Positions 12,316 to 15,191 of a stretch of DNA of 55,882 nucleotides are shown one piece after another. Under the pieces are notes generated by a model, which did no database searches, was not told the DNA's origin, and was given only the letters and a program-made list of their open reading frames with translations. The stretch is from Lysobacteraceae bacterium (GTDB lineage Bacteria > Pseudomonadota > Gammaproteobacteria > Xanthomonadales > Rhodanobacteraceae). Position 1 is the first letter of the stretch, and every line of letters begins with the position of its first letter. A program made the translations under genes and the position numbers. Location: the NCBI GenBank assembly GCA_028866435.1, contig JAGWIC010000007.1, positions 1-55,882 on the forward strand. Reading direction: 5' to 3'.

Positions 12316-12987
12316 ATGAGTATCCGCGACTGGCCCGAAGGCGAACGTCCCCGCGAAAAACTGCTGGCCCGCGGCTGCGCCGCGCTGTCCGACGCCGAGC
12401 TGCTGGCGCTGCTGCTGGGCAGCGGCAGCCGCGGCAAGGACGCGGTCGCGCTCGGCCGCGAACTGCTCGCCAATGCCGGCAGTCTGGGCGGGTTGCTGGG
12501 CCAGCCCGAGCAGCAGCTTCGCGCCAACGGACTGGGGCCGGCCAAACGGGCACGCATCGTCGCCGCGCTGGAGCTGGCGCGGCGCAGCCTGGCCGAGGAA
12601 CTGCAGCAGCGAGCCAGCCTGGGCAATCCCCGCGACAGCGGCGACTATCTCCGCGCCCGCCTGCGCCATCTTCCCTATGAGGTGTTCGGTTGCCTCTACC
12701 TCGACAATCGCCATCGCGTGCTGGCCTTCGAGGAACTGTTCCGCGGCACCGTCGACGGTGCCAGCGTGCATCCCCGCGAGGTGGTGCGCGCCTGCCTGCG
12801 GCACAACGCCTGCGCGGTGATCTTCGCCCACAACCATCCCTCCGGCGTCGCCGAACCCAGCACCGCGGATCGGGCGATCACCGAGGCATTGCGCGGCGCC
12901 CTGCAATTGGTCGGCGTCCGCGTGCTGGATCACCTGGTGATCGGCAGCGGCGAGCCGGTGTCGATGGCCGCGCGCGGCCTGCTGTGA
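12316..12987 (+). CDS. radC: RadC family (UPF0758) JAB-domain protein
   Basis: Conserved protein with an N-terminal helix-hairpin-helix part and a C-terminal JAMM/MPN+ metalloprotease-like domain; its molecular function is unsettled despite the historical DNA-repair name. The 223-aa product begins MSIRDWPEGERPREKLL, the family's usual start. The HNHPSG...EPS...D metal signature is intact (FAHNHPSGVAEPSTADRAIT). An in-frame ATG at 12289 would add nine residues. Its place beside coaBC is widely conserved in gammaproteobacteria. Confidence 0.94.
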   Translation: MSIRDWPEGERPREKLLARGCAALSDAELLALLLGSGSRGKDAVALGRELLANAGSLGGLLGQPEQQLRANGLGPAKRARIVAALELARRSLAEELQQRASLGNPRDSGDYLRARLRHLPYEVFGCLYLDNRHRVLAFEELFRGTVDGASVHPREVVRACLRHNACAVIFAHNHPSGVAEPSTADRAITEALRGALQLVGVRVLDHLVIGSGEPVSMAARGLL

Positions 12988-13003: not shown

Positions 13004-13035
13004 AAAAAAAACGGCGTGGCAATGAACCACGCCGT
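13004..13035 (-). terminator. Strong leftward Rho-independent terminator
   Basis: Arms 13011-13019 and 13027-13035 (ACGGCGTGG / CCACGCCGT) pair perfectly over 9 bp around a 7-nt loop. On the minus strand the stem is followed by eight T residues (13011-13004). Read rightward, the A-run precedes the hairpin, so it would not terminate radC. No annotated leftward gene ends here. Confidence 0.75.
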
Positions 13036-13251
13036 GGGGCCGATTGTGGGAGCACACAGGAGAGAGCGGCATCTCCAAAGCACCGCGTCATGGAGGGGAG
13101 TCATGTCGGTACGCGGCTATTGTCGCAATGCCGCATGACAGGACGATGACCCTGGCCGGCCTGAAAAAGCAGCGCCAAGTCATCGAAACTTATGCACAAA
13201 ACCGATAAACCCGCACTTACGGGCATCATCCCCTGTTTAACAACAGGTTCG
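13004..13251 (-). ncRNA. Candidate small RNA between radC and argS
   Basis: A leftward promoter-like pair (13258-13285) and the leftward terminator at 13004-13035 bracket about 248 nt with no plausible reading frame on that strand. The predicted transcript begins with two small hairpins (CCTGTT/AACAGG at 13232-13247 and CCCG/CGGG at 13210-13223). It later contains a composite stem (GTCATG 13100-13105 with CATGAC 13134-13139, CGGC 13114-13117 with GCCG 13130-13133). I recognise no known family: it does not look like 6S, tmRNA, SRP RNA or RNase P. The call rests on promoter, structure and terminator only. Confidence 0.4.
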
Positions 13252-13362
13252 CATTACATCATATTGAATAAATTGAATTTTTCAAATTTCTCGCCCCATT
13301 CCGCGTGCCATGGGCTTTGGCCGATCCGCGACCGGCTGGTTTTTCCCACAGAGTTATCCACA
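13190..13362 (+). promoter_or_regulatory. Two DnaA-box matches flanking an AT-rich patch upstream of argS
   Basis: TTATGCACA at 13190-13198 (one difference from consensus) and TTATCCACA at 13354-13362 (exact consensus) lie in the same orientation, 164 bp apart. An AT-rich stretch lies between them at about 13250-13290. The rest of the 515-bp gene-free interval 12988-13502 holds the leftward terminator, the candidate small RNA and its promoter, and no supportable ORF. dnaA, dnaN and gyrB are not nearby, so this is not presented as the replication origin. Confidence 0.4.
13258..13285 (-). promoter_or_regulatory. Leftward sigma-70-type promoter for the candidate small RNA
   Basis: On the minus strand -35 TTGAAA (13280-13285) and -10 TATGAT (13258-13263) are separated by 16 bp, one mismatch each from consensus, inside an unusually AT-rich patch (about 13250-13290). 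The predicted start is near 13251. Confidence 0.5.
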
Positions 13363-13502: not shown

Positions 13503-15191
13503 GTGAAAGAACAGTTGCGCGACTTGGTGCTGCAGGCCATCCAGTCCCTGCAAGACAGCGCCACCCTGCCCACCGAATTGAGCCTGCCCGGTTTCGTGAT
13601 CGAGCGTGCGCGCAGTCGCGAACACGGGGATTTCGCCTGCAACGTGGCGATGCTGCTGGCCAAACCGGCGCGCGCCAAACCGCGCGAGCTGGCCGAGAAG
13701 CTGGTGGCCGCGCTGCCGGCCAACACGCTGGTGGCCAAGGTCGAGATCGCCGGCCCCGGGTTCATCAACTTCTTCCTCGCGCCTGGCGCCTACCATGCCG
13801 AACTGCGCCGGATCATGGCCGAAGGCGATGCCTACGGGCGCAGCGCCACCGGCCGCGGCAAGACGGTGGGCGTGGAATTCGTCTCGGCCAACCCGACCGG
13901 CCCGCTGCACGTGGGCCATGGCCGCGCCGCGGCGATCGGCGACTGCCTGAGCCGCCTGCTCGACGCCAGCGGCTGGAACGTGAAGCGCGAGTTCTACTAC
14001 AACGACGCCGGCGTGCAGATCGCTAACCTGGCGATCTCGGTGCAGGCGCGCGCACGCGGCATCACCCCGGACGACAGCAACTGGCCGGAGAACGGCTACC
14101 GCGGCGACTACATCGCCGACGTGGCCCGCGCCTACCTCGACCGCGAGTCGGTGATGGCCGACGGCGAGACGGTGACCGGCGCCGGCGAGGTGGACGACCT
14201 CGAGGCGATCCGCCATTTCGCCGTGGCCTACCTGCGCCACGAGCAGGACCTGGACCTGCAGGCGTTCGGCGTGGGCTTCGACACCTACTTCCTGGAATCC
14301 TCGCTATACGGCGACGGCAAGGTGGAGGAGACCGTGCGCGAACTGGTCGCCCACGGCCACACCTACGAGGAAGGCGGCGCGCTGTGGCTGCGCACCACCG
14401 ATTTCGGTGACGACAAGGACCGCGTGATGCGCAAGTCCGACGGCACCTACACCTACTTCCTGCCCGACGTGGCCTACCACCTCAGCAAGTGGCAGCGCGG
14501 CTACGAACGCGCGATCACCGAGCTGGGCTCGGACCACCACGGCTCGCTGGCGCGGGTGAAGGCCGGTCTGCAGGCGCTCGACTGCGGCATCCCCAAGGGT
14601 TGGCCGGAATACGTGCTGCACCAGATGGTGACGGTGATGAAGGGCGGCGAGGAGGTGAAGATCTCCAAGCGCGCCGGCAGCTACGTCACCCTGCGCGACC
14701 TGATCGACGAGGTCGGCAAGGACGCCACGCGCTACTTCCTGATCTCGCGCAAGAGCGACTCGCAGCTGGTGTTCGACATCGACCTGGCGCGTTCGCAGTC
14801 GAACGACAACCCGGTCTACTACATCCAGTACGCGCACGCGCGCGTCTGCAGTGTGTTGCGCCAGGCGCCGGAAAAGGGTTTCGGCTTCGACCTGGCCGAC
14901 GGCCTGGCCCAGCTGGCGCGACTGGACAACGAGCACGAGCAGATCCTGCTGACCGAGCTGTCGAAGTATCCCGAGCAGGTCGAGGCCGCCGCGGCCAACC
15001 TCGAACCGCACCTGGTCGCCGGCTGGCTGCGCGAGCTGGCCAACGCGTTCCACGCCTACTACAACTCGCACCAGTTCCTGGTCGAGGACGAAGCGCTGCG
15101 CCACGCGCGCCTGGCACTGGTGGTGGCGACGCGCCAGGTGTTGAAGAATGGGCTGAACCTGTTGGGCCTCGACGCCCCGGAGAAGATGTAA
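13503..15191 (+). CDS. argS: Arginyl-tRNA synthetase
   Basis: Class I synthetase charging tRNA-Arg. The 562-aa protein has the N-terminal ArgS additional domain, the HIGH-type motif in [15 protein letters not shown], the ArgS signature region [10 protein letters not shown]-like ([16 protein letters not shown]), a KMSKS-like KISKRAGSY, and a C-terminal DALR anticodon-binding domain. The start is taken at GTG 13503 ([13 protein letters not shown]), the position matching related ArgS proteins; a TTG six codons earlier is possible. The SPOR gene follows with a 1-bp overlap. Confidence 0.97.

Follow-up and report, generated by a model that had tools for sequence, protein, structure and literature searches.

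The region of interest lies between radC, which ends at position 12,987, and argS, which starts at position 13,503, in a window of 55,882 nucleotides (the whole stretch of DNA that was analysed). Both genes are on the plus strand, so that, as an earlier note on this DNA had pointed out, the terminator found on the minus strand between them is not explained by any adjacent leftward gene. ARAGORN detected no tRNA or tmRNA over the window, and an Rfam scan of the window returned no match at gathering score. In an alignment of 34 intergenic regions adjoining radC (two of which, L022 and L026, were taken at a fixed length since the start of argS was not found), two blocks can be distinguished: one, close to radC, holds the sRNA, and the other, on the argS side, contains boxes of the TTATNCACA type. 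In L022 and L026, which belong to the window's own genus (g1), the sequence beyond the sRNA resembles the window's own ArgS in no more than divergent fragments, as would be expected had another version of argS taken its place.

On the minus strand of the block near radC, a Pho box (GGTCAT-CGTCC-TGTCAT, positions 13,135 to 13,151) is followed, 10 bp past it, by a −10 element (GACAAT, 13,119 to 13,124), and then by the gene of a putative sRNA of approximately 109 nt (13,004 to 13,112), delimited by covariance model and covariation, which ends in a rho-independent terminator hairpin and T run (13,004 to 13,035) recognized by pattern and covariation. The start was placed approximately 7 nt after the −10 element, give or take a few nucleotides. 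We infer a start near 13,112 and an end at 13,004 because the ordered unit and the covariance matches agree on 32 loci. Indeed, the succession of Pho box, 10 bp, −10 element, C-rich motif and terminator was detected in 32 of 40 loci (39 and the window; the spacing between Pho box and −10 element was part of the search pattern), and the same 32 were recovered independently by a covariance search blind to the Pho box. R1, a covariance model from which the window sequence was left out, matches positions 13,119 to 13,003 at 88.7 bits. The locus thus displays what is expected of an independent intergenic sRNA gene, i.e. its own promoter (as a motif), its own terminator and no adjacent leftward gene.

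A Pho box takes the form of two TGTCAT-type half-sites 11 bp apart, approximately 10 bp ahead of a −10 element, and the promoter described here has, by sequence, this arrangement of a PhoB regulon member. The same form agrees with the query quoted in the available text of PMC2573895. With a matrix derived from 38 loci of other genera only, the Pho box of the window scores 22.3 bits, and the next best site in the window 9.8. Pattern searches retrieved the box in 32/32 own-genus sRNA loci, and it is found in 38/38 radC–argS loci from other genera, in whose upstream sequences the −10 spacing is visible by eye. A matrix built from all 70 sRNA promoters was run over 30 pstS-type loci (225,902 positions), mostly TIGR02136 matches that fall short of the curated cut-off; five of these loci together yielded 10 sites scoring 14 bits or more, versus none in 304,660 positions of radC–argS control flanks, from which sites followed by the C-rich motif had been dropped beforehand. 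Nine of these 10 pst-locus sites belong to other families of the order, and the sole own-genus site (L142) is located approximately 1.1 kb upstream of the gene, on the opposite strand. Within the own genome, which has four exact YGTCAY-N5-YGTCAY sites versus one in the control, no Pho gene was recognized by eye beside any of the four. The assignment of the sRNA promoter to the Pho box type is well supported by these comparisons, from which we infer control of the sRNA gene by PhoB.

The predicted RNA folds into two stem-loops ahead of the terminator. Stem-loop 1 (13,080 to 13,112, minus strand, with a lower and an upper helix) exhibits double-sided changes in 10/10 pairs, with 87–88% of cells paired over 62 sequences. 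Its apical loop ACUCCCCUC (13,093 to 13,101) is a C-rich candidate anti-Shine–Dalgarno seed, in which three C residues (C22–C24) are invariant among the 32 own-genus sequences, and the C-rich core of which recurs in the other genera read. Stem-loop 2 (GCCG...CGGC, 13,039 to 13,070, minus strand) encloses a CU-rich loop, and its pairs are formed in 95.9% of cells, with double-sided changes in 4/4. The terminator stem (13,035 to 13,011) was confirmed as a hairpin preceding a T run, counted here as 10 pairs and T7 or, as in the earlier reading, 9 pairs and T8; it is unremarkable by pattern alone, since terminator-like sites are no commoner than in shuffled sequences (one versus 2.5 ± 1.8). Of the elements that the earlier note expected relatives to share, this stem is the one that stands, with 100% of cells paired and double-sided changes in 6/8 pairs over the 62 sequences. 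In contrast, neither the promoter that it proposed (see below) nor its stem at 13,100 to 13,139 is kept, the latter judged by eye on alignments; this stem overlaps the Pho box, the −10 element and the 5′ end of the RNA.

Taken as a whole, the structure of the 62 family-wide sequences (chosen from loci in hand: 58 of an earlier set, and L173–L176) is paired in 93.5% of cells versus 75.3% in shuffles, with double-sided changes in 20 of 22 pairs versus 13.1, and a covariation of 0.473 versus 0.158, which none of 500 shuffles equalled and which slid structures (0.03–0.07) did not approach. Likewise, the R1 alignment is paired in 94.4% of cells versus 87.4% when shuffled, with a covariation of 0.181 versus 0.067, and the model, built from 11 sequences, recovers 32/32 own-genus loci. 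The conserved structure with compensatory changes expected of an sRNA gene is thus found on the structure-fitted alignment, which leans towards the model because it was fitted to it, and weakly on a plain one. Indeed, RNAalifold on a plain MAFFT alignment returned the terminator and three pairs only, with little covariation and double-sided changes in 2/12 pairs, and stem-loop 1 was recovered only with the structure-fitted alignment. Folded individually, most sequences form a stem-loop 1 presenting ACUCCCCUC, and many form an alternative hairpin (GGAGA/UCUCC) at stem-loop 2. A shuffled simple helix test backs stem-loop 1 (8.8 versus 5.95 pairs) and gives no support to stem-loop 2 (5.2 versus 5.8 pairs), the support for which comes from the covariation analysis of the 62 sequences.

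A DNA search of 60 genomes yielded matches in 35, i.e. 34 of the 36 genomes of g1 (own genome included) and 1 of 24 others, the latter rejected as a chance stretch of 31 nt; the matches in G001 and G007 cover the DnaA-box part only. Among the 40 loci examined, eight are devoid of the sRNA unit: two are unrelated chance matches (L037, L039), two have no sRNA (L031, L036), and four (L033, L034, L035, L038) are radC–argS regions without it in genomes that carry the sRNA elsewhere. In these last four genomes (G026, G028, G003 and G005), the whole unit, Pho box included, is located between phoR and a glycosyltransferase gene (L027, L029, L030, L032), and in both loci tested (L032 and L027) PhoR exceeded its NCBIfam cut-off. 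The best matches of the glycosyltransferase, below cut-off, are glycolipid synthases; this enzyme is possibly linked to lipid remodelling under phosphate starvation.

At the scale of the family, R1 matched 129 of 233 genomes at E 0.01, a count that includes false positives since L110 and L111, which have no Pho box and are not radC–argS loci, were rejected. These two are the exceptions among 40 places fetched from other genera, the other 38 being radC–argS loci, all with a Pho box (only argS is visible in one fetched place, L086). A second model, R2, matched 99 of 398 genomes of the order. Fourteen of its places were read: four are real (family f1) and ten are plain terminators (eight in f2, one in f10, one in g30). 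The matches in the eight f2 genomes, in the f10 genome (one of its two matches was read) and in G157 (C9:352023) were thereby discarded as ordinary terminators by eye, with neither Pho box nor radC/argS. Without filtering, R2 scores sRNA places between E 5e-8 and 0.26, and misses L410. By eye, divergent or shortened forms with a Pho box and a C-rich stretch occur in g29, g30 and g38, and closer forms in g26 and g34; no form is visible in g20, and the place found in g43 is not radC. Loci L406–L410 (g29, g30) hold a shortened or divergent sRNA with, mostly, a clear Pho box, g30 having a single C-rich stem-loop before the terminator. A scan of named sequences returned 44 stretches, comprising 38 from Rhodanobacter or Dyella, five from unclassified MAGs named no further than phylum, order or family, and one with an Acidovorax label. 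This last contig (L187, uncultured Acidovorax) exhibits the sRNA promoter and loop pattern, and is perhaps a mis-binned Rhodanobacteraceae contig.

No Rfam family accounts for this RNA. In six f2 loci, no Rfam match reached the gathering score, and nine sRNA loci gave none at E 0.05. The best match, suhB/mmgR (RF00519), was rejected at 18.0 bits (E 0.24) versus a gathering score of 41, as was isrO (RF01397), a weak structural match at 15.0 bits versus 42. The suhB/mmgR RNA of alphaproteobacteria, which belongs to another host group, shares with the present RNA a CUCCC motif followed by a strong terminator. The earlier proposal of an orphan leftward sRNA between radC and argS, outside Rfam, is thus upheld by conservation, covariation and Rfam scans, the threshold-level Rfam search that it had suggested returning no family. 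Among the titles listed in a literature search of non-subscription papers, none reports this sRNA in Rhodanobacteraceae, and none of those listed is an sRNA paper for the present bacterial group. Taken together, these sequence data indicate that this is probably a new sRNA family of soil bacteria of the Rhodanobacter/Dyella group, made under phosphate shortage.

The closest parallel, by description only, is with sX13 of Xanthomonas. According to the parts of PMC3771888 available, sX13 is 115 nt long, is encoded downstream of polA, is reported from Xanthomonas, Xylella, Stenotrophomonas and Pseudoxanthomonas only, and lowers hfq and pilH expression via C-rich loops and G-rich motifs; the word ‘phosphate’ appears 0 times in its main text. 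The two RNAs are alike in length, in C-rich apical loops and in G-rich motifs near the start of their targets or candidate targets, and the sX13 targets hfq and pilH resemble candidates found here (hfq and a PilG/PilH-like response regulator). They differ in location, the present sRNA being found between radC and argS, or between phoR and the glycosyltransferase gene, and not downstream of polA. Phosphate-related sRNAs are described in other bacteria: in Sinorhizobium, some phosphate-responsive sRNAs have predicted PhoB sites whereas others are starvation-induced without an evident site, and in Escherichia coli a PhoB-induced sRNA acts on rpoS (available portions of PMC8829014 and PMC2573895). 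These share with the present RNA, again by description only, a tie to phosphate limitation that is predicted for the latter, and they occur in different bacteria.

Candidate targets were sought among genes led by G-rich Shine–Dalgarno sequences. In the own genome, the pattern GAGGGGA-N2-10-ATG gave 30 matches versus four for the reversed pattern; two of the 30 overlap, a further one corresponds to the antisense strand of the sRNA, and 17 of the 29 distinct frames encode at least 80 amino acids. The genes concerned include hfq, a PilT-family ATPase, a response regulator, a TonB receptor and folP, identities which, Hfq excepted, come from scans of N-terminal parts scoring below curated cut-offs. 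The response regulator is taken, by eye, to be PilG/PilH-like. A second TonB-receptor-like gene also has a GAGGGGA Shine–Dalgarno sequence by eye; the candidates other than hfq are at L331, L335, L332, L312 and L316. On these grounds, type IV pilus, TonB-receptor and other genes are candidates for further targets of the sRNA. The ten-base complement GGAGGGGAGTNA has five matches in seven genomes, three of which are the antisense of the sRNA itself.

For hfq, the own leader GCGAGGGGAGAAC offers 8 nt complementary to the sRNA loop. The hfq regions were read in 70 of 87 genomes, with two starts not found (g20). A GGGG within 30 nt of the start is present in 43/43 readable genomes from 15 genera observed to carry the sRNA (one more leader, the 44th, L362, having been set aside for a mis-called start), and in 8/8 genomes of g29, g30 and g38, compared with 5/16 in g21, g22, g23, g36, g40, g42 and g43 (in most comparison genera, absence of the sRNA was judged by model searches alone). 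GGGG leaders without a detected sRNA occur in g21, in g36 and in one genome each of g22 and g23; in g22 and g23, the G-run is upstream of an ordinary Shine–Dalgarno sequence. The GGGG pattern follows phylogeny, and shared ancestry could explain it. In the 27 genomes with both sequences, the longest exact complementarity between sRNA and hfq is 5–8 nt, the match in G148 lying away from the G-run. Duplex energies average −25.4 versus −23.2 for shuffled leaders, 29% of shuffles being as good; a control with reversed leaders (−25.7) carries no information, since GAGGGGAG is unchanged by reversal. The parallel with sX13 underlies the proposal of hfq, which we regard as the leading candidate for the most likely single target.

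A model can be built from the computed features (conserved Pho box, −10 element, RNA structure, C-rich loops, terminator, lack of an Rfam family and phoR-linked units), in which transcription start, induction by PhoB, mode of action and targets are predictions. Under phosphate scarcity, PhoB would activate the leftward promoter; an RNA of approximately 109 nt would be transcribed and ended by its own terminator; its C-rich loops (ACUCCCCUC of stem-loop 1 and the CU-rich loop of stem-loop 2) would pair with Shine–Dalgarno sequences of the AGGGGAG type, and this pairing would block translation of chosen messages. On the sequences in hand, we thus consider it quite likely that the locus encodes a PhoB-activated trans-acting sRNA which masks G-rich Shine–Dalgarno sequences, with hfq as likeliest target. 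A long T-run terminator is the usual 3′ end of Hfq-type RNAs. Hence a PhoB-driven RNA acting mainly as a protein-binding RNA or a sponge (for Hfq, a translational regulator or another RNA), rather than by masking Shine–Dalgarno sequences, would fit the constancy of the C-rich loops across genera as well as duplex energies that do not discriminate; it is nonetheless unlikely, as the loop core is perfectly complementary to the enriched Shine–Dalgarno class (30 versus 4 matches) and the hfq leaders read in g42 and g43, where no sRNA was detected, carry AGGAG instead.

Far less probable is the transcript originally proposed, an RNA of approximately 248 nt, for which the Pho box would be an internal or secondary promoter. 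The minus-strand TTGAAA-16-TATGAT from which it would start does exist at 13,285 to 13,258 with 10/12 matches, promoter-like sites being seen twice in 4.5 kb versus 0.5 ± 0.8 times in shuffles, and the 249-nt stretch is structured as claimed, folding better than its shuffles (z −2.78, 1/200 as good). However, a leftward match of at least 9/12 between the DnaA boxes is found in only 5 of 34 radC–argS loci, own locus included, and at differing positions; moreover, the conserved unit begins approximately 140 nt downstream of the proposed start, behind the Pho box, and the upstream 140 nt or so correspond to a DnaA/IHF element which persists in genomes that lack the sRNA or carry it elsewhere. On present evidence, the promoter-like site (13,258 to 13,285, minus strand) thus lies inside this element and outside the sRNA gene, and the transcript would be of approximately 109 nt. 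That there is no functional RNA, the region being a radC/argS terminator of antisense or read-through type and its Pho box a decoy, would agree with terminator-like hairpins being no commoner than chance here, and is made extremely improbable by double-sided changes in 20 of 22 pairs, the constant Pho box and the four genomes in which the complete unit adjoins phoR. Finally, a small-protein gene, to which the minus-strand open reading frames crossing the region could point, is scarcely credible where relatives differ by single bases in the lengths of their loops and linkers with pairing preserved, and where no common start codon and frame were noticed by eye.

The second finding, of an interest at least equal to that of the sRNA, is the neighbouring DnaA/IHF element. 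On the plus strand, a first DnaA box (TTATGCACA, 13,190 to 13,198) and a second strong box (TTATCCACA, 13,354 to 13,362) are the only two TTATNCACA sites of the whole window (at 13,190 and 13,354, 164 bp apart), and are separated by an AT-rich stretch. A weaker DnaA-box-like repeat (TTTCCCACA, 13,342 to 13,350, plus strand) is in tandem with the second box and corresponds to conserved columns 153–161 in 59 elements. Between the boxes, an IHF-like site (13,257 to 13,269, minus strand) occupies the offset conserved in the family, with two mismatches among the nine fixed bases. Both boxes, on the same strand and 163–165 bp apart, are present in 42/42 radC–argS loci of other genera, and paired boxes were found at radC–argS in all 76 loci measured, with a gap of 155 in 59 elements, 154 in 16 and 156 in one. 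A zero-mismatch IHF consensus occurs in 24/76 elements versus 6/1520 shuffles, and an IHF site with 0–1 mismatches is found on the minus strand at offset 57/58 in 47/76 elements, versus 9/10,625 positions at other offsets. The element and the sRNA are separable, because the element stays at radC–argS where the sRNA has moved.

The paired-box pattern was detected in 113 of 398 genomes of the order, 106 of them in the own family, some matches being away from radC–argS. At class level, the DnaA–IHF–DnaA pattern was found in 1 of 369 genomes, a search which missed the own genome because its IHF site is imperfect. An origin of replication (oriC) was rejected: in G030, the GC skew reaches its minimum at the contig start, where other DnaA boxes lie, approximately 121 kb from the present element. 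Within 400 kb surrounding that contig start, five TTATNCACA-type sites were counted, of which three coincide with the minimum and two belong to the present element; the window shows no lasting skew flip at 13 kb.

The datA locus (DDAH) stimulates hydrolysis of DnaA-bound ATP. A sequence scan of E. coli datA identified two strict boxes 162 bp apart, which we take to be boxes 2 and 3, and a minus-strand IHF consensus at offset 56. The available text of PMC4585315 makes datA activity dependent on boxes 2 and 3, the IHF site and their spacings. The two systems are close in geometry: the same-direction box pair spans 162 bp in E. coli (PMC10950094, PMC4585315, as far as available) versus 163–165 here, and the opposite-strand IHF consensus lies 56 bp after the first box versus 57–58. 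They differ in that, in the parts of these sources available, datA is downstream of glyVXY, whereas the present element is upstream of argS, and has an essential box 7, no counterpart of which was identified here; the order of box types differs as well. As to further boxes, box 7 is essential and box 4 stimulatory in E. coli; in the present family, conservation extends to the weak box in tandem with the second strong one. The datA layout, in which an IHF site is set between strong DnaA boxes at a constant spacing, is found in the family, the IHF site of the window having two mismatches. The element looks like a datA-like replication-control site, at which DnaA and IHF would bind. Among the titles listed in a literature search of non-subscription papers, none reports a datA-like element in Rhodanobacteraceae.

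Considered jointly, the two features might form a two-part control hub of Rhodanobacteraceae, in which a PhoB-driven sRNA would throttle hfq, and thus other sRNA circuits, in phosphate starvation, beside a datA-type element that inactivates DnaA; we put this forward tentatively, as a doubtful though conceivable reading. In any case, the present bacterial group gains a sequence-defined sRNA family, together with covariance models for its annotation, and this putative sRNA with sX13-like loops would be tied to phosphate starvation, with hfq named as first candidate target. If active, the DnaA/IHF element would extend datA-type control of replication beyond enterics, into a second lineage.
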